Origin: Kappaphycus alvarezii
Taxonomy: Eukaryota > Rhodophyta > Florideophyceae > Gigartinales > Solieriaceae
NCBI GenBank assembly: GCA_002205965.3
Contig: NADL03000073.1
Location: forward strand, 248,001-312,000
Length of the DNA: 64,000 nt
Direction: 5' to 3'
The notes beneath the pieces are model-generated. The model saw only the letters and a list, made by a program, of their open reading frames with translations. It was not told the DNA's origin and did not search any database. Below, in pieces: positions 607 through 61,916 of the stretch (positions are counted from its first letter, which is position 1; each line of letters starts with the position of its first letter). Made by a program: the position numbers and the translations under genes.

Positions 607-1445
607 GAGATTTTCCATGTCTCCCTCCCCCTCATCCTTTTCGTTTTCCTCTTCGTCCTCCTCCTTATCCTCCTCTTAATCCTTGTCAGAAGAGTCAAAG
701 ATGACGATTACTCCCTCGGTCTCCCCTTCGTTCTGCACAGCACCTCCCCCACCGTTGTACACTAGTGGTTACCGCGGGTCCACCAAGTTCTCCTCTTCAT
801 CCTCCTCTTCCTCTACCTCTTCTGCTCCTCGAAGAAGTGCCGGCGGACCCACTCCCGAACCCGTTCCCGGTGCATTCTACTACAGAAGTCATCATGATCG
901 GTTGATCCATTGGCCATCAGGGCCAGCGCTTTGAGGGTGCGACGGCCTCGCGATGACTTGGCGATGGTGAGGGACTGGCGTCATGTTGAGAAAAAAGGGG
1001 TGAGACGATGGGGTAGTTGATGGCGAGGGGTCTTTCTCAACGACGTTGATTTCGAACTTCAAATAGGGCGAAGTCTTCAAAAGGTGTCACGGCCTTGGAA
1101 GAAATAAGAAAATATGAGGCAATGCCGCGTCGTTGAATTTGCATGCAATCATGGAAATAACTAAACATCTGCTTTATAAAATGTCAAAACTGAGTTTGGA
1201 GTACCTGTATCACGAGTCGAAAGATTTTTCTTGGAGAGGGAGGACCAAATGCTCAAAGATAAAATAGAAATGGAGTTTCACGGTGAATTCGGATTCATGA
1301 GGAAAATTTGTTTCATGATTTTGTTCGTAAAAGAAAATTGAGGGAAGATTTGAAAACTCAAAGGGAAGGAGAGGACAGAGTTTTATAGAGCTGACCGCTC
1401 TCCTTCAGAAAGGACAGTTTCTAAACAACAGAGCGCACAAAAAAA
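607..1445 (-). mobile_element. Decayed long-type (U3-B) LTR fragment carrying the acidic ORF
   Basis: Read on the minus strand, this aligns along its length with the first half of the complete solo LTR at 47,956-49,458. The shared parts are the U3 start near 1,445, the leader, an ATG near 984, the N-terminal motif ALALMAN.STDHDD, an acidic run and a VIVIFDSSDK motif. The R-U5 half is missing, and the fragment is joined head-on to the integrase fragment at 606. It is an old fossil with several breaks. A SUMO-interaction-like motif is still readable. Confidence 0.75.
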
Positions 1446-2084: not shown

Positions 2085-3820
2085 CTTAGATCAAAATTTT
2101 ACTTTCAACTTCTCGACTATTGGTGTCTGCACTTGAAGGCAATAAGCAAAGTTGTGTCTCATCAGGCATTTAGTAATCTGTTTGTTTATTACATTATTGG
2201 AACTACTCATTGATTGAATTTTTTGCAATGGTTTATTGCTTTAATCTACTGTACTAAGTTAATATTTCATACATAACGCAATTTTGGTGATTATCTGATA
2301 TGTAGCAGCTATGGTACGATGTTTGTGCGTAATTGAAAAGTCATAATCCTTACAAGGTTTTGGAATTGATGGACAAAATTTTATTCATCTCTTGAGAGTT
2401 ACTTGAATTCGTATTGATTTCTGTTTATGTTACTTGTCATGACGTGACTACTTTCTGGCCAATCGTGTGGTCTTGTTTAATGATATTGAGATTTTTATTT
2501 CTTAGAACTACCAAGTCTTTATAAGATAAAGCTGCGAGGTGTTCGAACCGAAAGTATTCAACCCATCCCTTGACAGAAAAAAAATCCCTGAAGAAAAGTC
2601 GACAGCTTCATTCTCAACAAAAAATTAGCCAGAAAGCAAAATTTTACTGTAAGTTGTCCCAAAGTGTTTGCTCTTTCCCAAAAGAAGCGGTTAACACAGC
2701 TTACATGAACGTTTTTGTTAAGTCTAAAGTCTCAAAAAACATTACAAATATCATTAAATGCAATTAAGGGTTACTTCTGGAAGAGAAAGGCTAACAGTAG
2801 AAAATATAAGGATAAATTTCTATATTTACTCCTCGAAATCTTCTTCCTCGACATCAGAGCCGAAACATTCTTCAAAAATATCCATACACCAAATGCAGTC
2901 CCTACAAAATCTGTGAAGCGACCCAGAATCATTTACGGCCTCTTCTAGCACATCAAGAGCCTCCAATCTCCCCTGAAGTCACTCAAACTTCGCTTTGTTC
3001 CCAAGAGAATATTCCTAGATTACGATTACTCTCTCACTCTCCCTTCTGTTTTCCACAGAAAGTCCCCCACGGATATGCACTTGTGGCTCCCATGAGTCCA
3101 ACCAATCCTCCTCATCCTCCGATCCCTTCACATCCGCCTCAGCCTCCTCCGGCTCTTCTTCCTCCTCTTCCTCTTCTTCCTTCTCTGCATTCTCTGCCTC
3201 CTCTAAAAATATTACGGAAACCACTCCCGCTGGCTTTCCCGGTCCATCCTTCTGCATTAGATCTCTTAGTAAGTTCGACCAATGGCCATAAATCTAGGTC
3301 ATTCATGAAACGGCGAGCTCTGAACTAATTGGTGATTCTGAGAGACGGGCGGAAGTTGGTCATGTTGATGAAAAATTGGATGAGCCGATAGAGATGTTAA
3401 TGGCAGGGTTTTTGTTTCAATAACGTTGCCATCAAAATATAAATAGAGTAACTTCTCCGGTAGCTTTCAAATACTTGGACGAAATGAAAATTCTAGGCAA
3501 TGTTGTGGCTCAGAACTTGCATGCATTCAGGGAAAAAATAAAAATTATATTCGATAAAATATCAGAACTGAATTGGGAGGACGAAGCAGATCACGAGTCG
3601 ATAATTTTCTTTTCGACTTTTTGAAAATACATTCGTGCAGTGAATTTGGATTCATACAGGAAAAGGATTGTCGGATTTTTTTTACCAAAGAAAAGTTAGG
3701 AAAGTTTGTTTGAAAAAGGAGCGGGCAAGAATTTATCACCGGATGACGGTAACAGTAGTTTTGCAAAAAAGATCTGTTTCGTAATAACAATTTGCACATT
3801 CGAAAACAACTCCAAGTAAT
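2085..3820 (-). mobile_element. Old U3-B LTR remnant with acidic ORF, interrupted
   Basis: On the minus strand, 3,820-2,700 aligns with the U3-B leader, the acidic ORF and the post-ORF part of the LTR. The readable pieces include DWLDSWEPQVHI, a glutamate run and VIVI. The stretch 2,085-2,215 resembles the R region, with its degenerate version of the TTGGGTCTGAAGTTGACTC block. About 480 bp of unrelated DNA (2,216-2,700) separates the two blocks and is probably a later insertion. It is much more diverged than the copies at 28.5 and 48 kb, so it is an old fossil with many breaks. Confidence 0.6.
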
Positions 3821-6884: not shown

Positions 6885-7662
6885 CCCAAAACTTGTCTAC
6901 GGGATGGAAAAAGGGGAGACCGAGGACGACTCCAGAGAGAAGGAAAAAATAGGAGGCCGAGGAGGGAGGAGAGGAAGATAGGGAGTCCATGGACGAAGAA
7001 GGAGGCCTCGAACCAGGTCATATGGGAGGGGAAGGAGTTAAATGGTTCGACCAGGTGGTCCCAACCATGGACCCGGCTGGCGGGGAGTCAGATGATCTAA
7101 ATTTTTTGCAGGGAAGGGCGGACAATTGTGGCCCATCCGCAGATAATTGGGGGGATTACATGGGAACATATGATGTCTTCAGGGAAGTGCAAGGTTCTGG
7201 TCTAGAGGATGACTACTTTGATAAGTAGATTCATTCATTTTCTTTCAAATATCTATTGTCAAACTCTTTCTGCCCAAATAAAGCCTTGTACTAATTTTTC
7301 TAATACTTTTAGCAGTTTTATTGAGATTTTAGTTTGAAGAAAAATGTCTATATAAACCAAGTAAATTGTGTCCTCCATGAGAAGGAAAGCAGGATGGCAG
7401 AAAAATTTAGGTCCGGTCCCGAATAGTTAGGAAGTTGAGAGTCAAATTCATACCCAAGAAAGTTTTTTGCTACGCCAGTCGCAGAGGATAGGTGGTAGAG
7501 CCGGCCCTATAGAATCGCCTACTAGAGCAGTCACTCAGCTTTCACGCATACAACTTTGCAACACCTTTTAACGTCTACCATAGCACTTTAGTCGCTCGCA
7601 ACGACTCCCACATCTGGTAGTTAGTGGCTTCCTTTTCAATCGAGGCCAGTTTCACCCTATCA
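6885..7662 (+). mobile_element. U3-B LTR fragment, 3' half
   Basis: The plus strand carries the C-terminal part of the acidic ORF (the FDQVVPTMDPAGGE block, ending about 7,228). The common downstream LTR part follows: a TATATAA element near 7,351, the GAGAGTCAAATTC block, the TACCATAGCACTTTAGTCGC block, and a terminal CCCTATCA at 7,662. The left side is truncated inside the acidic region. It directly abuts R2-like LINE sequence on the right. Diverged fossil with several breaks. Confidence 0.7.
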
Positions 7663-10959: not shown

Positions 10960-11852
10960 ACACTGGTTCTGAAGTAATAACCCCAAAAATGCTCCTTAGG
11001 TTAAAGTTTGAATTTCAGCTTCCCAAATATTTTTGTCTGTACTTGAAATTTCTTTTTAAGTAGACTTCATTATCCTAGAGGAAGCGTGGCGCTCAGCTTT
11101 TATGGACTTTTCGGATAACCCGAACTTCTCAAACAACAATATGAAATACCATAAAATGAATTGAACGGAATCTTATGGTCAAGGAATACTAGTATAAAAT
11201 ATTCTCAGGATAAATACATAGATTTATTCCTTAAAATCTTCGTCCTTGAGATCAAAGTCAAACAAATTCCCCAAAATATCCATACTCCCAGTGCAGTACC
11301 TATAAATTCTGTCGTAAGGGGCAGAATGATAGAAAACCCATTCGGACATGTCAGTTACTCCTCACGTTCCTCAAACTAGGCTCAGTTCGTAATACAGGAG
11401 TCTTAGATTACGATTAAATCCGAAATCTCCCATCCTTTCTTCACAGATTCTCCCTTACGGTTGTGGACCAATGTATCCTAATGTTAAACCAGGCCATCTT
11501 CATCCTAGGATCCCTCCACATCTTTCTTAGCATCTTCTGACTCCTTGGCGTCTTCCGCCCCCCTCAAAAGTTGGCGGTGAACACACTACAGAACGCGGTA
11601 CCGGCCCATCTTTCTGCGGTATTTTTAGTAGTCAGCTGGCCCATTGGTCATCAAAGCCAGACCTTTGGTAGAACAACGGGATCTTGTTGATTCGACGATG
11701 CTGAGGGGTGGGCAGATGTTGATCATGTTTATGAAAAGGTAATGTAGTTTGCGGTTTAGCCGATGGAGTGTTTGACAGCAGATGTGTTGCTTCAACGATG
11801 TTGCTGTCGTCCACTAAAATTGGGGTATTCCCTGGATAATATCCATGGCCTT
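10960..11852 (-). mobile_element. Old U3-B LTR remnant with acidic ORF
   Basis: On the minus strand this follows the U3-B order: an N-terminal ATG near 11,726 with CCCTCAGCATCG-type sequence, the ALMTNGPADY-like motif, an acidic coding run, an LIVI motif near 11,410, and the C-terminal acidic block. The TATGGACTTTTCGG and TTAAAGTTTGAATTTCAGC equivalents of the TATA and R blocks follow. It appears to be inserted in the G3 gypsy fossil. Very diverged, with many breaks. Confidence 0.6.
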
Positions 11853-28509: not shown

Positions 28510-30063
28510 TGATAGGGGAAAATCGTCGGGAGAAGAGATACTTAGAACCAACTACCCCAAGAGGAGGTGTTGCGAGCGACAAAAGTGCTACCGTGGTATA
28601 GTTGAACAAATAAAAAGGAGTGTATAGGGAGACAGTTGAATGGGCTACAAGCAAGTATGGAAGGGGCAGGTCTACCACCTATGCTTAGTGACTAGGGTAA
28701 AATAAATGCTTCTTGGGTCTGAAGTTGACTCTCAACTTCCTAACTATTTGGGACTGAGCTTGAAGCTGTCTGCCAACTTGCTTGACCTCTCCATGAGGAA
28801 GCGGTTTACTCAGCTTATATAGACTTTTGGCTAACCCTAAAGTCCGAACAAAACTACAGAAGGTACCAGGAAATGCATACAAACAATTTGTGTGGATGAT
28901 ATACTCTAAACAAAAGATACTTAAGAAACTAACAATCAATGAGGTCCTCTTATTTCCCATTCTCTAAATCAGATCCAAACAACTCCTCTAAAATATCCAT
29001 GCTGTCCAAGCAGTCCCCACAAATATCTGCGAATGGCTCACAGCTCTCTATTCCCTCCTGGGAGATATCTAAACTACTAAAGATATCTCCATCCGGTTCC
29101 AGCGTCGGCACCACTTGATCCATACTCTCCAGTCCAGGCCCCACCAGTACAACACTTTCCATGCCCCCATTTCCCTCATCCAACTCGTCCTCGTCCTCGT
29201 CATCCTCCTCTTCCTCCTCTTCCTCCTCATCCTCATCCTCATCTTCATCCTCATCCTCCCGTCCTCGTCCTCATCTTCAACCTCATCCTCATCCTCATCC
29301 TCCTCTTCATCCTCATCTCCCCGTCCTCCTCGTTATTAACCTCATAGACCAATCCAGGGGCTACCCACTCCTCAAAGGTCTCCCCAGCTCCCTCCTCGAT
29401 GTCCCACTCCTGACCCTCAGGTACCTCCTCGGCCTCATCCTCGACGAAGAGCTTGCGGACGAATTCTATTATCTTCTTCTTAGTCTGCCGTCTCAGGTAG
29501 TCGTCTGCATCCGTCGGGCCATATACTGCGAGCGCAAGGCCGTTTAAGGGGCGAGAGGGGCGGTTTTTAGTGATGGGGGCGGAGGGGCGAAGGTTGCTCA
29601 TTTTGGTTGTAAATGATTGTAGACGGAGGATAGAGGGTGTTTTGGGTGTGTTGGGGAAGAGGAGTGATGAGTAAAATGATCAGGGACGTTTGAAACTTGG
29701 AATAAAAAGGTTTAAATAGGCTCCCGGGGCAGGTTCTATCGATTAGGAATAGGTAAAATAAATCTGCAAGGGATTTTTAGTAGTGCATTTGCGCCCTTTT
29801 TCTCAAAAAAAAAACGAATTTGGAGAGGAGGTAAGGAAAAAGGGAAAAAGAACTTGATTCGGGATCGATTCAGAGGGGTAGATACAGTATAAAAATATCT
29901 AGATAAAATGGAAGTAAATTTGGGGAGGACCGCGGTAATGATAAGCGAGGTTCAGGGAGGACGAGGAAGGACCGGAACTATAAGCAAATTTGGACAAGGA
30001 GAGGTAGTACAGTAAACTATAGGCCTGTAGATGACGGCGACAAAAAAAAATCTGCGCCTAACA
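28510..30063 (-). repeat. 3' LTR of the chimeric G1 element, type U3-B (1,554 bp)
   Basis: On the minus strand it starts TGTTAGGCGC directly after a run of six G and ends CCCCTATCA. Its last ~430 bp (TATA region, R and U5) match the 5' LTR of the same insertion, but the upstream ~1.1 kb do not. They match instead the solo LTR at 47,956-49,458 and include the acidic ORF. A TATATAAG element lies near 28,818-28,826 on the minus strand. Confidence 0.85.
28950..29601 (-). CDS. LTR-encoded acidic protein (copy in the 3' LTR)
   Basis: A sense-orientation coding region inside U3. It begins MSNLRPSAPITKNR, followed by the family motif RPLNGLALAVYGPTDADDYL and a stretch with KKIIEFVRKLFVEDEAEE. A strongly Asp/Glu-rich low-complexity middle follows (GA-rich triplet DNA on the minus strand). 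The C-terminal block is SMDQVVPTLEPDGDIFSSLD, then CGDCLDSMDILEELFGSDLE. The end resembles an acidic amphipathic activation segment (DILEELFGSDL), which is inference. Other copies carry a VIVISDS motif in the middle; I do not see it in this copy. No known family is recognised. It is in about two open pieces. It belongs to the LTR of a retroelement, so it is treated as a fossil. Confidence 0.6.
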
Positions 30064-30098
30064 CCCCCCGGACTTAGGTCGAACGTCCCGTCTCGTTC

Positions 30099-30527
30099 TC
30101 AATGCTCTTGTTGTTCTTGTGGGAGTTCTATCCATTCATCAGGGAGAGTATAGGGTTCACTATAAGGATATGGTAGTAGCTCATTTCCAATATGATGAGA
30201 GAGTGTGTACCGTGCGATGACCGGCTCATCTCCTTGGTCAAGAGTTTCGTAGATTCGGCGTATGGTTTCACAGTGTTCTCTAATGAGCTCCTCCCGTTTC
30301 ACTTCTCCAAACCTTCCAAATGTGAGGTAATAAACGTAGTATGCAAACTTTTCTGGCAACGGGTCCAGAAACGGGTATCTGAAGGAGAAAAAAACTCGCA
30401 ACATAAGGACTGAGTCCTCACGAGTAAGGTGCGCCCCGTGAATGGTCTGGAAGCACATGCAAATACTAATCGCAAAAAGGAAATTACTTCTGCTTCTCGT
30501 GGGTCCTCTGTCATTTGGCGAAGCCAA
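30099..30527 (-). CDS. Terminal pol domain of G1 gypsy, subfamily B version
   Basis: A 142-codon minus-strand frame just upstream of the polypurine tract of the 3' LTR. Its SICMCFQTIHGAHLTREDSV and LMLRVFFSF match ICLCFRTLNGPLLPEEDF and LIRVLFSF at the end of the integrase frame at 30,874-31,866, but with considerable divergence. It therefore represents a second, different version of the same C-terminal domain. The end (HHIGNELLPYPYSEPYTLPDE) matches the sequence before the 3' LTR of the plus-strand element at 44.43 kb. The function of this tail domain is unknown to me. Confidence 0.6.
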   Translation of the reverse strand: MASPNDRGPTRSRSNFLFAISICMCFQTIHGAHLTREDSVLMLRVFFSFRYPFLDPLPEKFAYYVYYLTFGRFGEVKREELIREHCETIRRIYETLDQGDEPVIARYTLSHHIGNELLPYPYSEPYTLPDEWIELPQEQQEH

Positions 30528-30873
30528 CGTCTAATTGGTAGCCGTCAGTCGGCTCTAAAGTACTTGTAGTACATGGGAAAGCAATGCAGCAGGCTGTGAA
30601 GTGGCCGGCCTTCCAAAAAAGTACTCGAATCCTTGCGTCGTCACGGAGGAAAGACACCCGCACTATAAGCTATGTTCAAGCTCAGGGAAGAGATCAAGGA
30701 GGGCCATCCATGCACGTCGTCTAGTCCCTTACCATCAGAGGCCTGAAGAATTCCTTCTCACACAGGACTATGCGCAACCACGGGCATACTCATCTTTAAC
30801 TATAGAATGATTCCTATGGGAGGAAAAGGGGCCTGGGAAACCGGGGTAAGGCGTAACCTCTCAGTCGCACATC

Positions 30874-32207
30874 TTAGTTTTTCTTGAGAAATACGTAAAT
30901 TGGACGGATAATATTCAGATACGTTTGCGAAAAGTCTCCAGCAGCTACCATTCCATATCGTCCTATAGAGTAATGATGTATTACCTCCACAAACTCTGGA
31001 CCTGCTTCCGTGAACCTTCCGTTTTGGAATGAAAATAGAACTCTTATTAATAGTCGGAAATCTTCTTCAGGTAGCAATGGTCCGTTCAACGTACGAAAAC
31101 ATAGGCATATATTAATGTAGAAATGGATGATTACGTGGAGTTCGTAGTAGTCCTGCGTAATCGAGATGATCCATTCCCAGGCCCTTTTTCCTCCTATAGG
31201 ACTCATTCTATAGTTAAAGATGAGTATGCCCCGTGGTTGACGTCGGTTCGAGTACTTGGTTTGGAAGGCCGGCCACTTCACAGCCTGCTGCATTGCTTTT
31301 CCATGTACTACAAGTACTTTAGAGCCAACTGAAAAGGTTCTGACTGCAGGTTCTGCATCCTTATTTCTTGTCTGTGTTAGCGCGCGGTGTGATCTCCAGC
31401 CTTCGGTGGCCAGTAGTTCAACTTCCCTACTCTCTTCATCGATAATATTTGTTTCCATGTCTCTCTGTAACATTCTAGGAGCCCTTCCGTACATTAGCTC
31501 GAATGGTGAGCGTCCATTTCTTCCTCTTCTTCGACGATAGCCGTATAACACTTTTGGTAAGGCATCTTCCCACTGGATTTCATTCTCCGACATAGTTTTC
31601 GATATTGCTCGTTTGATGGTTCCAACCATCCTCTCCGCTTTCCCGTTGGACATAGGAGCGTATGCGAGAACGGTCTTCAGCTGAATCCCTTTCTCTTCCA
31701 AAAAACGAAGCAGTGAAGTTGCAGTAAAACAAAGGGCGTTATCCGAGATGATCCTTTTTGGAAGACCAAACGGTTCAATTATTTCTTTTTCGATGAATCT
31801 CAGTACCACCTCAGCATTTGCCTCCTCAACTGCAACTGCTATTGGCCATCCAGTAAGATGTTCCACCCCTATAAGGAGATATTTTTTCCGGAAGAAGTTT
31901 CCTTGAACGGGCCCGCAAAGTCAATTGAGAAGGTTTCAAAGAGACCGGAAACTGGAAAACTTAGAGTTGTCTTATACTTCCGTATTGGAGTGAATTTTTG
32001 GCAGTTGTCGCAGCTTTTCACGAAATTATAGACGTCCTTATGGATACCGGGCCACCAGAATCTCTCAGTTACGAATTTTTTGGTTGTTTCGAGATCCCAA
32101 TGCCCTAGCTCATCATGGAAAGTCCTCAAGATCTTCATTCTTTCTTTCAAAGGGGCCACTAGTCGGGGACCGGCTTTAGTGTGCCGGAAGAGTTTCCCAT
32201 TCCACAA
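30874..32207 (-). CDS. G1 gypsy integrase
   Basis: The zinc-binding part shows FHDELGHWDLETTKKF and CDNCQKF. The catalytic core shows HLTGWPIAVAVEEANAEVV, RIISDNALCFTATSLLRFLE and YAPMSNGKAERMVGTIKRAI, which carry the second Asp and the Glu of the DDE set. A C-terminal domain follows with FELMYGRAPRMLQRDMETN and VGSKVLVVHGK. The extra tail after it (about 110 residues, ending RPIYVFLKKN) is not a standard integrase domain. Encoded in about two open pieces within the fossil. Confidence 0.8.
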
Positions 32208-32394
32208 TGTAAAAGCCTTTTGATTCCTGCGTACCCAATTTCTTGTTCAAGATCAACCTTTCTCATTTCTAGTCCATCGAGGAATTTGATCAGTCCGTGA
32301 ATATTAGCTTCGTACTCGTTATCGTTCGGCAACTGCAACTCGGCGACTCCGACGATGTCCTCCGAAGCTTTTTCATTTGGAATCAGTGCGTCCC

Positions 32395-33714
32395 TCAAGC
32401 GGGATAGGTAATCGGCAGGCTGATTATTGCGTCCGGGTCTATACACAATTTCAAACCGATATTCTGCGAAAATGTCGAGCCATCGGGCCAAGCGGTGATG
32501 TACATCCTTCTTTTGGAATGCTGTTTAAGTGCCTGGTGATCAGTTATCAAGACAAATTTCTCGAGTGATAAAAGGTATACGCGAAACTTTTTCAGCGCGA
32601 AGACGACAGCTAGCGCTTCTTTCTCGCAGACTGAGTATCTCTTTTCCGCATCATTCAGAGTTCGGCTTGCGAATTGAACAGGGTGTAGTCTTCCGTTTTC
32701 ATCTTTTTGGGACAAAACGGCACCCAAAGACCGTTCTGAGGCATCTGTCTCCACAACGAATGGTCTCTTGAAATCTGGGTACATGAGAACTGGGGGGACA
32801 CATAGCTTATCTTTAAGCTCCTGAAATGCAGTTTCCATTTCCTTGTTCCAGTAAAATTTTCCGTTCTTCGTAGTGCTGGCATGTAACGGTGCTGCAGTCT
32901 TGGCGAAATCTTTGATAAATCTTCTGTAATATGAGGCCAGTCCTAAGAAGCTTCGGACCTCCGTCTTTGAAGCGGGCCTTGGTGCCAACTTTATTTTTTT
33001 CGTTTTCTCTGGATCCACTCTAATTCCCTCTTGGTCGACGATATGACCGAGTAATTGGATAGAAGTTTTCGCAAAGAAGCATTTGCTCAACTTAATTTTC
33101 AAGCTATACTCCGATATCCTCTCCACAACTGTCTTGACGTGCGAGATGTGCTGATCCAATGTTTCTGAGAATATGACGACATCATCGATATAGACTCTTG
33201 CGAATGGAAGTCCTTTCAAAACCTCGTTCATCATTCTTTGGAATGTAGCTGGTGCATTCATGAGACCAAAAGGCATCACTTCGAACCTGAACGTACCGGC
33301 TTTGCTGGTAAAGGTTGTTTTTTCCTTACATTTTTCATCCAATGGAATCTGCCAATAGCCAGTGTAAAGGTCAATTGAGGTGAAATATCTCCCGTCCTTC
33401 AGGTCCTCGAGGATCTCCTCCATGTTCGGAATCGGAAATCGATCGGGTATCATTCTCTGGTTCAGTTGTCGGTAATCGACGCAAAAACGCAGCTTTCCAT
33501 CCTTCTTTGGTGCGACCACAACTGGAAACGACCATGGGGATGAAACTGGTCGAATAATATCATTTTTCAGCATACTTGTAACATTTTCTGAGATAAATTG
33601 GTCATATTTTGGCGGTTGACGTCTAGGCTTGTGGTAAATCGGTTGAGTGTCGGTAAGTTCGAACGAGTGAGTAACCGGTACACTTGCTTGTCTTAAATCT
33701 GAAACTCCATGCAA
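32395..33714 (-). CDS. G1 gypsy reverse transcriptase and RNase H
   Basis: A 439-codon open frame. RT motifs in order are VVVAPKKDGKLRFCVDYRQL, RYFTSIDLYTGYWQIPLDE, MPFGLMNAPATFQRMMNEVL and the active site ARVYIDDVVIFSE with YIDD. The connection shows LLGHIVDQEGIRVDP and SFLGLASYYRRFIKDFAK. The RNase H start is FVVETDASERSLGAVLSQKD, with KRYSVCEKEALAVVFALKKF and LITDHQALK. The longest well-preserved coding region in the window. Confidence 0.9.
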   Translation of the reverse strand: MHGVSDLRQASVPVTHSFELTDTQPIYHKPRRQPPKYDQFISENVTSMLKNDIIRPVSSPWSFPVVVAPKKDGKLRFCVDYRQLNQRMIPDRFPIPNMEEILEDLKDGRYFTSIDLYTGYWQIPLDEKCKEKTTFTSKAGTFRFEVMPFGLMNAPATFQRMMNEVLKGLPFARVYIDDVVIFSETLDQHISHVKTVVERISEYSLKIKLSKCFFAKTSIQLLGHIVDQEGIRVDPEKTKKIKLAPRPASKTEVRSFLGLASYYRRFIKDFAKTAAPLHASTTKNGKFYWNKEMETAFQELKDKLCVPPVLMYPDFKRPFVVETDASERSLGAVLSQKDENGRLHPVQFASRTLNDAEKRYSVCEKEALAVVFALKKFRVYLLSLEKFVLITDHQALKQHSKRRMYITAWPDGSTFSQNIGLKLCIDPDAIISLPITYPA

Positions 33715-34192
33715 TTACTTCGGAAGATGTTAACATGTCGGATATTTTCAGTGGGGGCGGCGGGAAGGTGCTGCACTTTTCCTTGGATTTCTGCCATTTG
33801 GCGCCCTTTTTCTTCTTGATCCTCAACCTCAATATTTTGAAGGACCTCTTCCGTCGTGCTCACATCTTCATATATGGAATTCGACGTATTCTTATTTTCT
33901 TTGCAAAGGTAATCTTCTTTCATGCTCCGAATTCTGTCCTTTGATTCGATATCATCGCAAAAAGAAACACATTCGGGTTTCAAACTTATCCTAGAATTCC
34001 AGTCGTCATCTGTTTCAAACCCGAATCATAATCGTCCCATGCCATGTTCATTACCCCCAGGGTACCCTTTTCCACTTCCGAAAGTGTTAGTTGGTTCCGA
34101 ATCTTCGCTGTCATAGCTAGAAGTGAAATCTTCACTGTCCGTTTCTTTTAAATCTTCAGGATGCGTGCTTTTGTCGAAATCCAGGGGCATCT

Positions 34193-35590
34193 TCACGGTT
34201 CTGCCGTCAATATTAACTGAAACCATTTGGTTGCCCAAGTCAATGCATGTCCTAGTCTTTCCATGGTAGGGCAGCCAATGATTGCATCGAAAGGGAGATC
34301 CGGCATGACAAGAAAGTCTACATCAACTTTAGAGTCCCCAAAGAACACGGAAACCTTGTCAACAGTGCCCATGCATTTTGAGACGGTTCCATCCGCTACA
34401 GTTATTTTTCGAGTCGTTGGAGTAATTTCGAGACCTAGATCTGTCACCAAAGTTTCTGAAATGAGGTTTGGAACAGCACCCGAATCGAAGAGAGCTTGGG
34501 TTTTCATACCCAATACTTTGACTGGTACCAGCTTAAGACGTCTTGGTGCTGTCGAGGCCGATTGAAGAAACAGTTTCTTACCCTTAGCGGACTTATTAGA
34601 CCTGATAATTTTTTTGAGTTCTTTTCTCGCATCCTCTGCGTCGCCCCTCAAAAGTTGACCAAACGTTATCCCAGTTGGGGCCGATGCAAGCTCAGCCACC
34701 AAATTGTACCTCTTCACATACTCTAGTACGTCCTTAGAGATACTCTTAACTTTCTTACTCTTTTTCGTCTTCTTGGCCGGAGTGACTCCCACTCCTGGAA
34801 CAACTTGATCAGACCTCTTGGTTCGAGGAGGTACAGGTGCTGGGATATGCTCCAGCATTCCATACTCTAGCCTAGGTTTCTTCGATAAAATGTTCCCTTC
34901 CCCATCCCTTTTTGTCACATTGACTTGACTAATCTCTTCAGCGATGGATACGTTACCGGCATCCGTCAACCTTTGATCCCTTCTATTTTGTAAGATTTTC
35001 ACCTCTGGTCCTGACTCACTCCTTGCTTCCGATAAATTTGCTCTTCTGTTGTCTTTAGACCAGCAGTTACTTTCATGATGCCCATATCGACCGCACTTTG
35101 CACAACGAGTGTTTCTATGTGGATTATCAGGACACCTGTTTGCAAAGTGTCCAGGCTTGTGACAGTAAGAACAGACTTCTGCGGCCTTAGGGGCCCCAGA
35201 CTGGTTCTTCTTAATGGTAAGAGTAAGGCTTTCCAACTGCGAGGTTATCATGTCAAGTCGATTATCGAATCGGGTTTCCAACCTTTCTTCCAAGTTTTTG
35301 ACATCGCTCCTGACAGATTCTAATGCCGCTGCACTAGTAGCCGGCCTTTGATAATTCTTTTCAGGATGTACGATAGACATCGATGTGCGGGTTTCCCTCG
35401 GTACCTCACTCAGTGACTGAAACGTCTCCGAATTTTTGACAAATTCTACTATGGTACCCTTCAGTTCATCAAAAGTGTGAGGGCCCTTGATGAGGAGGAA
35501 ATCGGAGAGCCGCTTATCCCCCATAGCCGGCCTTACGCAGCATTCCGTACTTGGCTTGGGCGTTGAACCCAGCCTTTTCATAAAGATCAC
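34193..35590 (-). CDS. G1 gypsy gag C-terminal part with two zinc knuckles, and protease
   Basis: A 465-codon open frame. Near the first third it has two CCHC knuckles, CSYCHKPGHFANRC and CAKCGRYGHHESNC. A basic, lysine-rich linker follows, then an aspartic protease with the active site ALFDSGAVPNLIS and the downstream VDFLVMPDLPFDAIIGC motif. In gypsy elements gag and protease are commonly expressed from one polyprotein. Confidence 0.85.
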   Translation of the reverse strand: MIFMKRLGSTPKPSTECCVRPAMGDKRLSDFLLIKGPHTFDELKGTIVEFVKNSETFQSLSEVPRETRTSMSIVHPEKNYQRPATSAAALESVRSDVKNLEERLETRFDNRLDMITSQLESLTLTIKKNQSGAPKAAEVCSYCHKPGHFANRCPDNPHRNTRCAKCGRYGHHESNCWSKDNRRANLSEARSESGPEVKILQNRRDQRLTDAGNVSIAEEISQVNVTKRDGEGNILSKKPRLEYGMLEHIPAPVPPRTKRSDQVVPGVGVTPAKKTKKSKKVKSISKDVLEYVKRYNLVAELASAPTGITFGQLLRGDAEDARKELKKIIRSNKSAKGKKLFLQSASTAPRRLKLVPVKVLGMKTQALFDSGAVPNLISETLVTDLGLEITPTTRKITVADGTVSKCMGTVDKVSVFFGDSKVDVDFLVMPDLPFDAIIGCPTMERLGHALTWATKWFQLILTAEP

Positions 35591-36014
35591 ACAAGTACAC
35601 CAATGAGCTTAACAAATCGTCGAAGTTGAGCCGGGCCTCTATGGCGGTACGAATCATCTCATCTGGTTCTACCTCCTTAGCATACTCTTTCACAAGCCAC
35701 TCACATACCTCACCGAAGTTACGCCCATTCCCGTTAAGAGACCACCCGTCGATAAACTTGGACTTATATTTGTGCTTTGCGTCACCATGAAGATAGGCGA
35801 AGATACTTGCGGCCTTCTCTTCATCGCCCTTCTCACGCATCACAACGTTGACATATGTATAGAGAAACTCCTCAACGTCTTCATTCTTGCCCCCTGTGAA
35901 CGTTATACGAGCAGCGTTGAGATCCATGATTACAGAAAAGAAATCCCCTCGAAGGTTCCTAAGACTGCTCAACTCGAATACCTCGGGTGCAACCCCCTCC
36001 ACAAGAGTACCAAA
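35514..36014 (-). CDS. G1 gypsy gag N-terminal part
   Basis: A frame with a likely start at the ATG before DLNAARITFTGGKNEDVEEF, just inside the 5' LTR. It shows the capsid-like helical pattern of Ty3/gypsy gag: VEEFLYTYVNVVMREKGDEE, AASIFAYLHGDAKHKY and FGEVCEWLVKEYAKEVEPDE. It overlaps the next frame. The same segment is present at 40,141-40,450 in the plus-strand copy. Confidence 0.75.
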   Translation of the reverse strand, partial: FGTLVEGVAPEVFELSSLRNLRGDFFSVIMDLNAARITFTGGKNEDVEEFLYTYVNVVMREKGDEEKAASIFAYLHGDAKHKYKSKFIDGWSLNGNGRNFGEVCEWLVKEYAKEVEPDEMIRTAIEARLNFDDLLSSLVYLCDLYEKAGFNAQAKYGMLRKAGYGG

Positions 36015-36730
36015 TGATAGGGGTAAATCGTCGGGAGAAGAGATACTTAGAACCAACTACCCCAAGACGGAGGTGTTGCGAGCGACAAAAGTGCTACCGT
36101 GGTATAGTTGAACAAATAAAAAGGAGTGTATATGGAGAGAGTTGAGAGGGCTACAAGCAAGTATAAAAGGGGCAGGGTCTACCACTGATGCTCTGCGACA
36201 GCTTAGGAAAAAGTTTTCTTGGGTCTGAAGTTGACTCTCAACTTCCTACTACTCGGAGCTTGACCTGAAGTTGTCTGCCAACTTCCTTGACCTCCACTAA
36301 AGGAAGCAGTTTACTCGGCTTATATAGACTTTTGGCTACCCTAAAAGTCTCAAACAAACATACTAATAACCATAAAATGCATTCACGGAATCGTGTGAAC
36401 CAGAGAGACCATTAGAAGATATTTCCTCAAGGTAAATATCTAGGTGCCATACCCATGCCAGCCACCCATCGGCCAGGGGTGGGAATTGATGTGGCCATTA
36501 TATAGACCTTTCAGAGTCACTCGTAGTATCACCCACAACCTAGAACTGTACTGACATCCACTATGACAGCGTGTCCTAAAATAAAAAATCAACCGATGAA
36601 TTTGCCACACTCACCCAAATTAAAAATATCTTGCAAATTCAAAAACTGTAAAAATATCTTCCCAGTTCCAATACTGTATACAATTATGGTCCTCATCTAG
36701 ATTTTTTCGTGTGCGAATTTGCGCACATCA
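36015..36730 (-). repeat. 5' LTR of the chimeric G1 element, type U3-C (716 bp)
   Basis: It runs TGATAGGGG at 36,015 to ACATCA at 36,730, i.e. on the minus strand it starts TGATGTGCGC and ends CCCCTATCA. The R-U5 and TATA region agree with the 3' LTR, while the upstream ~290 bp belong to type C, as in the copy at 9.29-9.98 kb. A second TATATAA element lies in the C-specific part near 36,500 on the minus strand. Confidence 0.85.
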
Positions 36731-39425: not shown

Positions 39426-40054
39426 TGATATAATGAAAATTGTAGATATTCCTTGGCATGCTGCGCTGGCTGAGCTGGCTGCGCTGGCTCAGTTGGCATG
39501 CTGCGCTGGCCGAGTTGGCATGCTGTGCTGGCTGAGTTGGCATGCTGCGCTGGCTGAGTTGGCACTGTACTTACAATTATATTTTTAAATATTTTTTAGA
39601 GGGATGCTTTGCACTGTACTGTGGCGGTGCAGATTTGGCACATAGGTACTGTATAGGTGCTACAGAATGTGAGGGTTGAAAACTCTATATAAGGGGCTGT
39701 TTGCATGAAATGGTAGGACTACTTGGGAGCCAGCATACCGAGCGGGGCGCTCAACAAGTTAAGTCAAACACAAAGCATAAAGGAAGTTGGCAGACAGCTT
39801 CAGCTCAGTCCCAAATAGTTAGGAAGTTGAGAGTCAACTTCAGACCCAAGAAGCATTTATTTTACCCTAGTCACTGAGCATAGGTGGTAGACCCTGCCCC
39901 TTCCATACTTGCTTGTAGCCCATTCAACTGTCGTCCCTATACACTCCTTTCGTTCGTTCAACTATACCACGGTAGCACTTTTGTCGCTTGCAACACCTCC
40001 TTCTTGGGGTGGTTGATTCTGAATATCTCTTCTCCCGACGATTTACCCCTATCA
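39426..40054 (+). repeat. 5' LTR, type U3-A (629 bp)
   Basis: Termini TGATATAATG and CCCCTATCA. The U3 contains the GC-rich tandem repeat (about 39,453-39,560) and a TATATAAGG element near 39,690. The R-U5 part is shared with U3-B and U3-C LTRs from the AAGTTGGCAGAC block onward. Confidence 0.9.
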
Positions 40055-43000
40055 TTTGGTACTCTTGTGGAGGGGGTTGCCCGAGGTATTCGAGTTGAGC
40101 AGTCTTAGGGAACCATTCGAGGGGATTTCTTTTCTGTAATCATGGATCTCAACGCTGCTCGTATAACGTTCACAGGGGCAAGAATGAAGACGTTGAGGAG
40201 TTTCTCTATACATATGTCAACGTTGTGATGCGTGAGAAGAGCGATGAAGAGAAGGCCGAAAGTATCTTCGCCTATCTTCATGGTGACGCAAAGCACAAAT
40301 ATAAGGCCAAGTTTATCAACGGGTGGTCTCTTAACGGGAATGGGCGTAACTTCGGTGAGGTATGTGAGTGGCTTGTGAAAGAATATGCTAAGGAGGTAGA
40401 ACCAGATGAGATGATTCGTACCGCCATAGAGGCCGGCTCAATTTCGACGATTTGTTAAGCTCATTGGTATACTTGTGTGATCTCTATGAAAAGGCTGGGT
40501 TCAACGCCCAAGCCAAGTACGGAATGCTACGTAAGGCGGCGATGGGGATAAGCGGCTCTCCGATTTCCTTCTCATCAAGGGCCTCACACTTTTAATGAAC
40601 TGAAGGGTACCATAGTAGAATTTGTCAAAAATTCGGAGACGTTTCAGTCACTAAGTGAAATGCCGACGGAAACCCGTACATCTATGCCGATCGTACATCC
40701 TGAAAAGAATTATCAAAGGCCAGCGACTAGCGCAGCAGCATTGGAATCAGTCAGGAGCGATGTCAAAAACTTGGAAGAAAGGTTGGAAACCCGATTCGAT
40801 AATCGACTTGACATGATAACCTCGCAGTTGGAAAGCCTTACTCTTACCATTAAGAAGAACCAGTCTGGGCCCCAAGGCCGCAGAAGTCTGTTCCTACTGT
40901 CACAAGCCTGGACACTTTGCAAATAGGTGTCCTGATAATCCACATAGAAACACTCGTTGTGGAAAGTGCGGTCGATATGGGCATCATGAAAGTAACTGCT
41001 GGTCTAGAGACAACAGAAAAGCAAATTTATCGGACGCAAGGAGCGAGTCAGGACCAGAGATGAAAATCTTACGAACAGAAAGGATCACAAGTTGACGGAT
41101 GCCGGTAACGTATCCATCGCTGAAGAAATCAGTCAAGTCAATGTGACAAAAAGGGATGGGGAAGGGAACATTTTATCGAAGAAACCTAGGCTAGATTATG
41201 GAATGCTGGAACACATCCAGCACCTGTACCTCTCGAACCAAGAGGTCTGATCAAGTTGTTCCAGGAGTAGGAGTCACTCCGGCCAAGAAGACGAAAAAGA
41301 GTAAGAAAGTCAAGAGTATCTCTAAGGACGTACTAGAGTATGTGAAGAGGTACAATTTGGTGCTGAGCTTGCATCGGCCCCAACTGGGATACGTTTGGTC
41401 AACTTTTGAGGGGCGACGCAGAAGACGCGAGGAAAGAACTCAAAAAAATTATCAGGTCTAATAAGTCCGCTAAGGTAAGAAACTGTTTTCTTCAATCGGC
41501 CTCGACAGCACCAAGACGTCTTAAGCTGGTACCAGTCAAAGTATTGGGTATGAAAACCCAAGCTCTTTCGATTCGGGTGCTGTTCCAAACCTCATTTCAG
41601 AAACTTTGGTGACAGATCTAGGTCTCGAAATTACTCCAACGACTCGAAAAATAACTGTAGCGGATGGAACCGTCTCAAAATGCATGGGCACTGTTGACAA
41701 GGTTTCCGTGTTCTTTGGGGACTCTAAAGTTGATGTAGACTTTCTTGTCATGCCTGATCTCCCTTTCGATGCAATCATTGGCTGCCCTACCATGGAAAGA
41801 CTAGGGACTGCATTGACTTGGGCAACCAAATCGTTTCAGTTAAATTGACGGCAGAACCGTGAAGATGCCCCTGGATTTCGACAAAAGCACACATCCTAGA
41901 TTTAAAAGAAACGGACAGTGAAGATTTCACTTCTAGCTATGACAGCGAAGATTCGAACCAACTAACACTTTCGGAAGTGGAAAGGGTACCTCGGGGGTAT
42001 GAACATGGCATGGGACGATTATGATTCTGGGTTTGAAACAGATGAGACTGGAATTCTAGGATAGTTTGACACCGAATGTGTTTCTTTTTGCGATGATATC
42101 GAATCAAAGGACAGAATTCGGAGCATGAAAGAAGATTACCTTTGCAAGAAAAAGAATATATCGGAATTCCATATCTGAAGATGTGAGCACGACGGAAAGG
42201 TCCTTCAAAATATTGAGGTTGAGATCAAGAAGAAAAAGGGCGCCAAATGGCAGAAATCCAAGGAAAAGTGCAGCACCTTCCCGCCCCGCCTCACTGAAAA
42301 TATCCGACATGTTAACATCTTCCGAAGTAATTGCATGGAGTGTTCAGATTTAAGACAAGCAAGTGTACCGGTACTCACTCATTTGAACTTACCGATACTC
42401 AACCAATTTACCACAGCCTAGACGTCAACCGCCAAAATATGACCAATTTATCTCAGAAATGTTACAAGTATGCTGAAAATGATATTATTCGCCAGTTTCA
42501 TCCCCATGGTCATTTCCAGTTGTGGTCGCACCAAAGAAGGATGGAAAGCTGCTTTTGCGTCGATTACCGACAACTGAACCAGAGAATGATACCCGATCGA
42601 TTTCCGATTCCGAACATGGAGGAATCCTCGAGGACTTGAAGGACGGGAGATACTTCACCTCAATTGATCTTTACACTGGTTATTGGCAGATTCCATTGGA
42701 TGAAAAATGTAAGGAAAAACAACTTTTACCAGCAAAGCCGGTACATTCAGGTTCGAAGTGATGCCTTTTGGTCTCATGAATGCCCAGCTACATTCCAAAG
42801 AATGATGAACGAGGTTTTGAAAGGACTTCCATTTGCAAGAGTTATATCGATGATGTCGTCATATTCTCAAAACTTGGATCAGCACATATCGCACGTCAAG
42901 ACGTTGTGGAGAGATATGCGTACAGCCTGAAAATTAAGTTAAGCAAATGCTTCTTTGCGAAAACTTCTATCCAATTACTCGGTCATATCGTCGACCAAGA

Positions 43001-43814
43001 GGGAATTAAGTGGATCCAGAGAAAACGAAAAAAATAAAGTTGGCACCAAGGCCCGCTTCAAAGACGGAGGTCCGAAGCTTCTTAGGACTGGCCTCATATT
43101 ACAGAAGATTTATCAAAGATTTCGCCAAGACTGCAGCACCGTTACATGCCAGCACTACGAAGAACGGAAAATTTTACTGGAACAAGGAAATGGAAACTGC
43201 ATTTCAGGAGCTTAAAGATAAGCTATGTGTCCCCCAGTTCTCATGTACCCAGATTTCAAGAGACCATTCGTTGTGGAGACAGATGCCTCAGAACGGTCTT
43301 TGGGTGCCGTTTTGTCCCAAAAAGATGAAAACGGAAGACTACACCCTGTTCAATTCGCAAGTCGAACTCTGAATGATGCGGAAAAGAGATACTCAGTCTG
43401 CGAGAAAGAAGCGCTAGCTGTCGTCTTCGCGCTGAAAAAGTTTCGCGTATACCTTTTATCACTCGAGAAATTTGTCTTGATAACTGATCACCAGGCACTT
43501 AAGACAGCATTCCAAAAGAAGGATGTACATCACCGCTTGGCCCGATGGCTCGACATTTTCGCAGAATATCGGTTTGAAATTGTGTATAGACCCGGACGCA
43601 ATAATCAGCCTGCCGATTACCTATCCCGCTTGAGGGATCCACTGATTCCAAATGAAAAAGCTTCGAGGACATCGTCGGAGTTGCCGAGTTGCAGTGCCGA
43701 ACAACGAGTACGAAGCTAATATTCACGGACTATTAAATTCCTTGATGGACTAGAAATGAGAAAGGTTGATCTGAACACAGAAATTGGGTACGCAGGAATC
43801 AAAAGGCTTTTACA

Positions 43815-44439
43815 TTGTGGAATGGGAAACTCTTCCGGCACACTAAAGCCGGTCCCCGACTAGTGGCCCCTTTGAAAGAAAGAATGAAGATCTTGAGGAC
43901 TTTCCATGATGAGCTAGGGCATTGGGATCTCGAAACAACCAAAAAATTCGTAACTGAGAGATTCTGGTGGCCCGGTATCCATAAGGACGTCTATAATTTC
44001 GTGAAAAGCTGCGACAACTGCCAAAAATTCACTCCAATACGAAGTATAAGACAACTCTAAGTTTTCCAGTTTCCGGTCTCTTTGAAACCTTCTCAATTGA
44101 CTTTGCGGGCCCGTTCAAGGAAACTCTTCCGGAAACAAATATCTCCTTATAGGGGTGGAACATCTTACTGGATGGCCAATAGCAGTTGCAGTTGAGGAGG
44201 CAAATGCTGAGGTGGTACTGAAATTCATCGAAAAAGAAATAATTGAACCGTTTGGCCTTCCAAAAAGGATCATCTCGGATAACGCCCTTTGTTTTACTGC
44301 AACTTCACTGCTTCGTTTCTTGGAAGAGAAAGGGATTCAGCTCAAGACAGTTCTCGACTACGCTCTTATGTCAAACGGGAAAGCCAAAAAGATGATTGGA
44401 ACTATCAAACGCGCACCTACTTTTTGGAATATTTTATAG
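43815..44439 (+). CDS. G1 gypsy integrase (plus-strand copy)
   Basis: Zinc-binding region with FHDELGHWDLETTKKF and CDNCQKF, then the core with HLTGWPIAVAVEE and RIISDNALCFTATSLLRFLE. Almost identical to the minus-strand copy at 31.2-32.2 kb. Part of a broken element; the C-terminal region is shorter than in that copy. Confidence 0.8.
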
Positions 44440-44561
44440 GTAATCAACTGCATCCCTATTCGTTTGAAAGGCCTCATGTTTTAACAATAAGGCAACTTAC
44501 ATTAATAGAAACAGAAGAAGAATGATGACGAGTCGGGACGTTCGTCTTGAGCGAGGGGGCG

Positions 44562-45209
44562 TGATATAATGAAAATTGTAGATATTCCTTGGCATGCTGC
44601 GCTGGCTGAGCTGGCTGCGCTGGCTGAGCTGGCTGCGCTGGCTCAGTTGGCATGCTGCGCTGGCCGAGTTGGCATGCTGTGCTGGCTGAGTTGGCATGCT
44701 GCGCTGGCTGAGTTGGCACTGTACTTACAATTATATTTTTAATTATTTTTAGAGGGATGCTTTGCACTGTACTGTGGCGGTGCAGATTTGGCACATAGGT
44801 ACTGTATAGGTGCTACAGAATGTGAGGGTTGAAAACTCTATATAAGGGGCTGTTTGCATGAAATGGTAGGACTACTTGGGAGCCAGCATACCCGAGCGGG
44901 GCGCTCAACAAGTTAAGTCAAACACAAAGCATAAAGGAAGTTGGCAGACACTTCAAGCTCAGTCCCAAATAGTTAGGAAGTTGAGAGTCAACTTCAGACC
45001 CAAGAAGCATTTATTTTACCCTAGTCACTAAGCATAGGTGGTAGACCCTGCCCCTTCCATACTTGCTTGTAGCCCATTCAACTGTCGTCCCTATACACTC
45101 CTTTTCGTTCGTTCAACTATACCACGGTAGCACTTTTGTCGCTTGCAACACCTCCTTCTTGGGGTGGTTGATTCTGAATATCTCTTCTCCCGACGATTTA
45201 CCCCTATCA
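44562..45209 (+). repeat. 3' LTR, type U3-A (648 bp)
   Basis: Same termini as the 5' LTR. It is longer mainly by one extra tandem unit (array about 44,590-44,720). The other differences are few and mostly changes in homopolymer length. Confidence 0.9.
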
Positions 45210-47955: not shown

Positions 47956-49458
47956 TGTTGTTACAAAAAAGGTCCTTTCTGTAGGAGAGTGGTCCTCTCC
48001 ACAAACTTCTGTCTTCTCCTTCCCTGTGAGTTTTCAAAAACAACTCACCCCATCAATTTCTTTCACGAATAAAATCATGAATCCAGTTTTCCCCATAAAT
48101 CCAAATTCTCTGTGCAACTCCATATCTATTTTGTCTCTGAGCATTTTGGTCCTTTTCCGAAAAAGGAATCTTTCCACTCGTGATCCGCTTCGTCATCCAA
48201 ATTCAGTTCAGATATTTTAATAAGCAGATTATCAGTTATTGCCATAACTGCATGCAAATTCAAAGCCGCGGCATTGCCTCAGATTTTTATAGTTTTTTTA
48301 CAAGGCCGTGAAACTTTTCGAAGACGTCGCCCTATTTAAAGTTCGAAATCAACGTTGTTGAGGAAACCTCCTCGCCATCAACTACCCCATCGGCTCATCC
48401 CTTTTCCCCCCTCAACATGACCAATCTCCGCCCGTCCCTCACCATCGCAAATTCATCCCGAGGCCGCAGCCCCTTCAACGCGCTGGCCCTGATGGCCAAC
48501 GGACCAACGGACTATGATGACTACTGTAGGAGAATGGACCGGGAACGCGTTCGGGAATGGGTTTGCCGGCACTGCTTCGAGGACACAGAAGAGGCAGGGG
48601 ACGTAGAGGAAGAGGAGGAAGAGGAGGCGGAAGAGGAGGCGGAAGAGGAGGACTGGTTGGACCCGTGGGAGCCACTAGTGTACAACGGTGGGGGAGCTGC
48701 TGTGGAGAACGAAGGGGAGACTGAGGGAGTAATCGTTATCTCTGACTCTGCTGACAAAGAAGAAGAGGAGGGTGAAGAGGAGGACGAGTAGGATGAGCCG
48801 GAGGGAGATATAGAAAGTGCTGGAATGGTGGGGAGGGGGCCGGATAGTATGGACCAGGTGGTCCCGACGCTGGAGCCGGATGGGGGCATCTTTAGTGGTT
48901 TAGATATCTCCCAAGAGGAAATAGAGAGTTGCAAGCCATTCGCGGATATTGTGGGGACTTCTCGGGGGAATGAATATTTTGGGGGAATTTTTTTGATTTT
49001 ATCCAGAGGACTAAAGATATTACGGAAGAAATCTAGATACTTATCCTGATAGTATCTGCTGTTTGTCTTTCTTGTTCACACTATTCCATTTTATGCATTC
49101 TATGGTTCTTAGTATGTTCTTTGAGACTTTAGGGATACCAAAAAGTCCATATAACTGAGTAAACTGCTTCCTGTTGTGGAGGTCAAGCAAGTTGGCAGAC
49201 AACTTCAAGTCAAGTCCCGAATAGTAGGAAGCTGAGAGTCAACTTCAGACCCAAGAACCATTTCTTACGCTGTTCACAGAGCATCAGTGGTAGACCCTAC
49301 CTCTTCTGCACTTGCGTGTAGGCCTTGCAAACTATCGTCCTTACCCAACCCTTCTTGTTCGTTCAACTATACCACGGTAGCACTTTAGTCACTTGCAACA
49401 CCTCCTTCTTGGGGTACTTGGCTCTATTTATCTCTTCTCCAGACGATTTATCCTATCA
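47956..49458 (+). mobile_element. Complete solo LTR of G1 gypsy, type U3-B (1,503 bp)
   Basis: Termini TGTTGTTACA and ATCCTATCA, flanked by GGTTG on both sides, with no internal region. The first ~460 bp are an AT-rich leader, then the acidic ORF occupies 48,417-49,049. The TATATAAC region (~49,149), R and U5 shared with the other G1 LTR types follow. It is inserted in the endonuclease end of LINE copy f. This copy defines the full length and ends of the U3-B type and shows that the acidic ORF lies wholly within the LTR. Confidence 0.9.
48417..49049 (+). CDS. LTR-encoded acidic protein with SUMO-interaction-like motif
   Basis: The start ATG follows a C-rich leader, CCCCTCAAC. The N-terminal ~65 residues are basic and motif-rich (TNLRPSLTIANSSRG, FNALALMANGPTDYDDYCRR and ERVREWVCRHCFEDTEE). 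A Glu-rich run comes next, then EDWLDPWEPLVYNGG, VENEGETEGVIVISDSADKE and another acidic run. VIVISDS followed by acidic residues is the classic form of a SUMO-interacting motif. The C-terminal part has SMDQVVPTLEPDGGIFSGLD and EEIESCKPFADI. There is no signal peptide or membrane segment. Family unknown to me. Possible roles are a regulatory factor acting on transcription or on host SUMO-linked silencing (inference). Broken, with about one break. Confidence 0.65.
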
Positions 49459-49545
49459 GGTTGCACCTAGAGGCATGTGCAGTGCTAATTGACGTGGGAA
49501 GGAACGTGGCCGTGAGGGCACTGGAGACGTAGGGAACGTTTCGGG
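49459..49545 (+). mobile_element. R2-like LINE (copy f), continuation after the solo LTR
   Basis: Starting at the right GGTTG, the translation LHLEACAVLIDVGRNVAVRALE continues STLGG of the left part. It matches YLEAYAFVAVFGGNVATRAIE of copy e. The LINE then runs into an M1 repeat. Confidence 0.7.
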
Positions 49546-57029: not shown

Positions 57030-57297
57030 TTTGAGATTGAGACGACACAAAAGGAGTGAGCTCCTGTCCACAATACATCAGTAGATTCGGAGATGTGATC
57101 AGTAATACGCATGATGAAGTGTCACTTGAATAAGGCGTTATAATTTTGATTCTTTTTGATCTATGACAACGCACCGAGCCATATGTAATAGGAGATAGCT
57201 CGGACAACACACATCAGCAGTACGGTAGATAAAATGACAACAGTACTTAAGGACCTGGATCGCTAGGGAATAAGTAAAACTAAAAAAATATCTTGCA
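57030..57297 (+). repeat. 5' LTR of copia C1 (about 268 bp)
   Basis: Starts at TTTGAGATTGAGACGACAC and ends ATATCTTGCA. Matches 61,650-61,916 over its length. Confidence 0.85.
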
Positions 57298-57317
57298 ATA
57301 GGTTATGGGCCTAGATC
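57298..57317 (+). promoter_or_regulatory. Candidate primer-binding site, initiator-Met tRNA half
   Basis: ATAGGTTATGGGCCTAGATC directly follows the 5' LTR. GGTTATGGGCC is complementary to the anticodon stem-loop of eukaryotic initiator tRNA-Met (CATAACC region), as is known for Drosophila copia, which uses a cleaved tRNA half as primer. Confidence 0.65.
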
Positions 57318-61649: not shown

Positions 61650-61916
61650 GCTCAGATTGAGACGACACAACAAGGGGAGCTGTTGTCCACAATATATCAG
61701 TAGACTCGGAGTGTGATCAGTAATACGCATGATGAAGTGTCACTTGAATTAGGCGTTATAATTTTGATTCTTTTTGATCTATGACAACGCACCCGAGTCA
61801 TATGTAATAGGAGGTAGCTAGGACCACACACATCAGCAGTACGGTCGATAGCATGAAAACAGTACTTAGGGGCCTGTATCGCTAGGGAATAAGTAAAACT
61901 AAAAACATATCTTGCA
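61650..61916 (+). repeat. 3' LTR of copia C1 (about 267 bp)
   Basis: Preceded by the purine-rich GAGGAGGAG. Starts near GCTCAGATTGAGACG and ends ATATCTTGCA at 61,916. Confidence 0.85.

Follow-up and report, generated by a model that had tools for sequence, protein, structure and literature searches.

A family of Ty3/gypsy retrotransposons in Kappaphycus alvarezii carries a protein gene inside its long terminal repeats (LTRs). Comparison of its copies indicates that purifying selection acted on the encoded protein while the elements were active, and that copies decayed once they had inserted. We analysed the gene in a 64,000-nt stretch of contig NADL03000073.1, referred to here as the window, and in copies found elsewhere in the genome.

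A solo LTR with an ORF in U3

The first-pass annotation had described a 1.5-kb LTR of type U3-B with a GGTTG target duplication and, wholly within its U3, a sense-strand ORF. GGTTG was indeed present at both flanks (47951-47955 and 49459-49463), and the absence of an internal region beside the LTR identifies it as a solo LTR. The placement of the ORF in U3 also held, since the frame ends ~100 nt before a second TATA-like box, downstream of which we put the probable start of R. The features of this LTR are as follows.

47956..49458, + strand: solo LTR with the gene, 1503 bp, TGTTGTTAC...CTATCA, with TGTT...ATCA termini
48333..48340, + strand: TATTTAAA, a consensus match and putative promoter for the LTR gene, here 84 nt before the ATG
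48417..48791, + strand: ORF, from ATG 48417 to the in-frame TAG at 48789-48791, 124 codons
48729..48749, + strand: VIVISDS, predicted SUMO-interacting motif (SIM), followed by acidic residues
48792..48946, + strand: same-frame continuation beyond the TAG and start of the C block, by comparison with relatives
49148..49155, + strand: second TATA-like box, here CATATAAC, probable promoter of the genomic RNA
49185..49458, + strand: R/U5, with a putative R start, common to LTRs with unrelated U3

The 124-codon ORF contains an N block, an acidic tract, DWLDPWEPLVYNGGG and VIVISDS. In its relatives the protein extends past the position of the TAG, and from about 48947 the copy at 48417 is frameshifted relative to them. 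We dropped ORF length as evidence for a gene: a sense ORF of at least 124 codons occurred in 36 of 1000 dinucleotide-matched random sequences. Length alone is therefore near chance and a poor proof of a gene.

We searched the genome (336 Mb, 884 contigs) with the LTR DNA and obtained 42 matches, with 40 scored of 5815 candidates; 30 LTR loci selected in this way, including the window's own copy, were fetched and aligned. TATTTAAA was exact in 19 of these 30 copies, at a distance of 78 to 86 nt from the ATG, and no copy had another ATG between this box and the start of the ORF. At the second TATA-like box, TATATAAG was exact in 13 copies and variants of it stood in the remainder. The second box lies ~100 nt past the end of the ORF and 37 nt before the point at which LTRs of different U3 converge. 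From the box at 49148 and this convergence of LTRs with unrelated U3, we infer that R starts near 49185, at the convergence point, and that the second box is probably the genomic promoter. The ORF was found repeatedly in U3 between the two TATA-like boxes, both of which are predicted promoters.

The distal part of U3 (47956-48300) was present in 20 of the 30 aligned copies, and in the others a different sequence stands before 48301. Promoter box, ORF and R/U5 are common to the copies despite this replacement, so U3 is modular.

Copies of the ORF in the window

Five further copies in the window had been reported to retain portions of this protein at the corresponding place in the LTR. Our analysis, in which copies were identified by tblastn, alignment and reading frames, agreed on both counts and found no unbroken frame in any of the five. 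With the copy at 48417 included, a full-length unbroken frame was present in none of the six, all being broken or truncated. The further copies, and the second LTR that bears the ORF, are as follows.

28510..30063, - strand: second ORF-bearing LTR, the 3' LTR of a gypsy element, with target duplication CCTTG and an adjoining G-rich polypurine tract
28950..29601, - strand: ORF copy in that LTR, from ATG 29601 to a stop at 28952-28950, with a frameshift in the acidic tract
607..984, - strand: ORF copy interrupted at 607 by a different gypsy fragment; a small deletion follows the ATG, and there are in-frame stops
2826..3363, - strand: ORF copy, disrupted by stops and a frameshift
11224..11726, - strand: ORF copy with several stops
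6885..7228, + strand: ORF copy, C-terminal half only, with stop TAG at 7226-7228; its LTR ends at 7662

Codon-level selection

Among the 30 DNA-selected LTRs, the ATG was in place in 29. The frame was open for 186-200 codons in five copies (one of which starts with ATT), for 100-179 codons in three, and for fewer in 22. The first-pass annotation had proposed comparing codon-level change across the ORF with that in its flanks. We did this with 29 copies, having left out L006 as a 99.9% duplicate of L004 (same insertion). With the acidic tract left out, variants found in a single copy were spread evenly over first, second and third codon positions (98/100/104), which is the expectation for neutral decay after insertion. 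In contrast, variants common to at least four copies were concentrated at third positions (11/12/32; Fisher p=0.0014, where this and the other p-values serve as guides because shared variants may be co-inherited). The same difference was seen with the acidic tract included (single-copy, 129/116/127; shared, 17/19/40; p=0.004) and with L006 kept in (single-copy, 96/98/103; shared, 11/13/35; p=0.0007). Shared variants in the flanks were even (23/30/29; p=0.53), and a direct comparison of shared variants in ORF and flank gave p=0.014. The R/U5 control was less clean (5/8/15 over the three positions, 30 copies). When the LTR was divided into 50 overlapping segments of 162 nt, phase bias was strongest in three that all covered the start of the ORF, with the bias at the third position.

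By block, shared variants numbered 4/4/18 in the N block and 2/0/6 in the middle block, and the C block alone lacked a third-position excess among them (5/8/8, 29 copies). The third-position excess stems from the N block together with the SIM-like middle block. Gaps gave a parallel result: all four shared gap runs in 48417-48946 were multiples of three, compared with 2 of 18 in the flanks (p=0.002, 30 rows), whereas rare gaps in the ORF were chiefly frameshifts (10 of 12). Thus, the comparison came out as expected for a coding sequence. Shared variants mostly date from the phase in which the elements were active, and they are third biased; we conclude that the protein was, as judged from these substitution patterns, selected in active elements and later decayed.

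The six window copies, aligned without editing, were also compared in pairs. In each of the 10 comparable pairs, the N block (48417-48578) differed most often at the third position (for example, 15/15/28 for pair A-A3 and 22/19/29 for pair A-B), and differences in upstream U3 were even. We then used a permutation test that preserves the number and type of substitutions and scores conserved amino acids in the ORF frame. For the N block of pair A-B, 24 of 52 amino acids were conserved versus 13.8 expected (p=0.0003), and an excess was also found for pairs A3-B (p=0.0003) and A2-B (p=0.0007). For the C block, 36 of 50 were conserved versus 29.9 expected in pair A-B (p=0.004), and 19 of 50 versus 11.7 in pair A-C (p=0.002). 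The other two frames of the significant pairs gave no excess conservation in this test. N-block pairs A-A2 (p=0.29) and A2-A4 (p=0.46) were not significant, pair A3-A4 went in the opposite direction (13 conserved versus 17.2 expected), and the middle block gave no consistent permutation signal among the window copies. Four control comparisons in the window, from upstream sequence and the 3' flank, reached p of about 0.01.

A search of the genome with the protein scored 150 places of 7096 candidates, a list that favours good copies; about 69 of the 150, by hand count, lacked a stop across the matched stretch. R/U5 lay directly downstream in 29 of the 30 protein-selected loci that were fetched (L035-L064; two duplicates and one the window's own). 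We excluded these loci from the selection test because picking loci for their protein similarity would in its own right bias differences towards third positions. The first-pass annotation had left room for the ORF being a captured low-complexity repeat whose N block is limited to this contig. That possibility was not borne out: the N block occurs at no fewer than 150 scored places in the genome, and P0001, a protein of another public contig, matches the N block with an E value of 3e-17.

The encoded protein

Five open copies encode proteins of 186-200 residues with a pI of 4.05-4.13 and a charge of -35 to -43 at pH 7. Each comprises an N block, then a Glu/Asp tract, next a stretch like W(V/L)DPWEPLVYNGGG, the SIM-like region and a C block. 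The acidic tract is repetitive; the N block is non-repetitive and conserved. Helices were weakly predicted, two in the N block and one ending the C block, and structure models were poor (mean pLDDT, 54). We saw no signal peptide and no receptor-like domain in the protein.

In its best-kept form, the SIM-like region reads EGVIVISDSSDEDEE. In a phospho-SIM, a hydrophobic core precedes serine and acidic residues. By motif match, this core pattern was present in 25 of the 30 copies, with VIVISDS exact in 16, and the stretch resembles a phospho-SIM such as that of PML. The 40-nt bin that holds VIVISDS was the most conserved in 48417-49035 (0.89, versus 0.77 for the acidic tract); parts of R, which reach 0.91, are no less conserved. 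In the diverged copies at 29601 and 6885, the SIM-like stretch could not be seen. The SIM of PML is treated in the available part of PMC4276917.

Short proteins of other public contigs, P0003 and P0004, match the C block with E values of 3e-19 and 1e-9, respectively; P0002 is the window's own copy. No Pfam family reached its cut-off for the ORF protein or for the open copies, the best match below cut-off being BSP_II, an acidic protein (E 0.002; 18.3 versus 25.1 bits). A superantigen family was absent from the Pfam matches to E 0.1 or 1. A PDB sequence search with the protein gave E 0.26 or worse. No relatives were confirmed in viral contigs (also searched with the RT) or in bacterial and archaeal genomes, and a search with the longer frame, with X in place of the TAG, yielded no scored match among 159 candidates.

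Elements that carry the gene, and elements that do not

The ORF-bearing LTR at 28510-30063 belongs to a gypsy element, and a sister of this element lies further along the window.

30064..36014, - strand: gypsy body whose 3' LTR holds the gene, with protease, RT/RNase H and integrase in gypsy order
36015..36730, - strand: 5' LTR of insertion 28510-36730, of another U3 type and without the ORF; CCTTG adjoining
39426..45209, + strand: sister gypsy element, LTRs short and without the gene; target duplication GTAAC

In the body at 30064..36014, the protease, RT/RNase H and integrase domains run on the minus strand from 35590 to 30877, the order found in Ty3/gypsy elements. The RT matches Ty3 Gag-Pol (7q5b; E 2e-82), and the integrase match is slightly under the Pfam cut-off (30.2 versus 32.6 bits). 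The LTRs likewise have the TG...CA termini and 5-bp target duplications of this group, with pairs of GGTTG, CCTTG and GTAAC. One element, at locus L032 (contig C45), comprises an ORF-bearing 5' LTR, gag, RT and integrase, and also the first part of a 3' LTR whose U3 is the same as that of the 5' LTR. We conclude that the LTR gene is linked to the gag-pol of one element family.

The sister body at 39426..45209 is 95.5% identical to that at 30064..36014 over a 4696-column alignment. Similar gag-pol bodies carry at least three U3 types: A, which is short; B, with the gene; and C, which is short and has two TATA boxes. The gene is optional for the element, as closely similar gag-pol bodies also have gene-less LTRs.

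Insertion 28510-36730 (- strand) has unlike LTRs, with U3-C at the 5' end and U3-B at the 3' end, yet CCTTG stands on both sides. Compared with the sister, its 5' R/U5 is 86% alike and the first 400 nt of its body are 97% alike, and identity therefore shifts at the border of U5 and the primer site. Strand transfer between two templates could be the source of the unlike LTRs; gene conversion is the other reading.

Proposed function and alternatives

The reading that we prefer, with a probability of about 0.5, is that a selected U3 gene with its own TATA box encodes a nuclear, acidic, SUMO-binding protein that regulates LTR transcription in trans. On the features described above, a plausible mechanism can be proposed. 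TATTTAAA, upstream of the genomic-RNA promoter, would start a short mRNA that terminates in the LTR's own R region. With such an mRNA, every LTR, solo LTRs included, could supply the protein. The product of ~200 residues, predicted to be mostly disordered, would begin with a short N block of helical form, followed by an extended Glu/Asp tract, the phospho-SIM and a C-terminal helix. It would contact SUMO-modified chromatin or transcription proteins, and such contact may keep the LTR promoter active, or un-silenced, in trans. Elements lacking the gene moved too. More tentatively, the LTR may be a self-contained gene made up of promoter, SUMO-binding regulator ORF and terminator; every solo LTR that outlasts its element body would then be a working gene in a large, self-spreading family, which travels as an exchangeable U3 cassette and provides the elements that can still move with a regulator acting in trans.

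Four alternatives were considered. The protein could act outside transcription, as an acidic nucleic-acid mimic or as a chaperone for Gag, integrase or cDNA, the SIM-like stretch being incidental. The strong negative charge of all five open copies and the lack of a confidently predicted fold suit such a role, but the bin with VIVISDS is better conserved than the acidic tract and than all else in 48417-49035, and we consider this reading unlikely.

Self-limitation, in which the LTR gene is a dose-dependent brake on the element and many LTRs restrain new insertions, seems quite unlikely. Ty1 p22, which acts in copy-number control, is the model for such a brake. Each solo LTR would supply the gene, with a dose that rises with copy number, and gene-less bodies exist. 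However, the sequence gives no hint of a capsid-like or inhibitory domain and has no Pfam match at cut-off, and selection for a brake must work via the host or among elements.

It is improbable that the upstream TATTTAAA is the genomic promoter, which would make R long and place the ORF in R/U5 as the genomic RNA's first cistron. This box is well kept, but a second TATA-like box stands behind the ORF, and 37 nt later LTRs of unrelated U3 converge at the joint expected from strand transfer through R. Moreover, in LTRs of types A and C no such ORF precedes gag.

In the last alternative, the ORF is no gene but an acidic stretch, arisen by chance or captured, that a regulatory U3 has kept as DNA only. 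This would fit the near-chance ORF length, the six broken window copies and the repetitive acidic tract, but the codon-phase signal in shared and not in single-copy variants makes it highly improbable. The triplet gaps, the frames that are open in 5 of 30 copies and a conserved, non-repetitive N block also stand against it.

Relation to known systems

To our knowledge, protein genes within LTRs are known from a few retroviruses. Retroviral nef overlaps U3, and foamy virus genes extend into U3. The first-pass annotation had named mouse mammary tumour virus (MMTV) sag as the known retroviral case; nef makes it not the sole parallel. The comparison is nevertheless apt. According to the available part of PMC9412291, the Sag ORF lies in MMTV U3 and is driven by P2, a promoter that is also in U3; the gene described here likewise has its ORF in U3, where an additional promoter is predicted for it. 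It differs in that its carrier is a Ty3/gypsy element and not a retrovirus, and in that its Pfam lists contain no superantigen family.

In plant LTR elements, additional ORFs lie in the internal region, mostly between pol and the 3' LTR, according to the portion of PMC7264820 that was accessible. Grande gene23, treated there, is likewise an accessory gene; it has its own promoter, as is predicted here, and the Grande product is nuclear. Unlike the present gene, which is in sense orientation and within the LTR, it is antisense and lies between pol and the 3' LTR. A gene inside the LTR is present in two copies per element and also in solo LTRs. In crapaud, a fungal LTR element of Podospora anserina, most of the variation falls in U3 upstream of the TATA box, and 7 of 150 full copies have unlike LTRs, as in insertion 28510-36730; in contrast to the present family, no ORF in the LTR is mentioned in the available text of PMC10787394. 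Retrosat2 of rice is also a long-LTR element with an extra, lineage-restricted ORF, ORF0, but this is not placed inside the LTR in the part of PMC3485330 available.

A search of the open-licence literature, mostly judged by listings, found no precedent for a protein gene within a Ty3/gypsy LTR. Hence, a U3 gene as a kind is known from MMTV; as far as we found, the novelty lies in the carrier, the protein and the scale. A gene under selection in these LTRs would mean that a retroviral invention was repeated in a cellular retroelement lineage, and that solo LTRs are possible protein genes, with a dose that rises with copy number, and not spent promoters. Closely similar gag-pol bodies with and without the gene offer a natural experiment. 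LTRs are usually masked as non-coding in repeat annotation, so such genes could escape notice elsewhere.

Other repeats in the window

A repeat at 14881-16112 (+) and 37736-37047 (-) is 84% alike over 693 bp and holds part of a 389-codon ORF with no Pfam match. Another, at 7894-8771 (+) and 46597-47475 (+), is 63.5% alike over 891 columns and contains ORFs of no assigned kind; its second copy lies immediately upstream of the solo LTR at 47956-49458. At 57034-61918 (+) is a decayed copia-type element, with 265-bp direct repeats at 57034 and 61654 that are 91% alike, and between them matches to CCHC, Pol_BBD, gag_pre-integrs and SH3_retrovirus, the last two just under cut-off.
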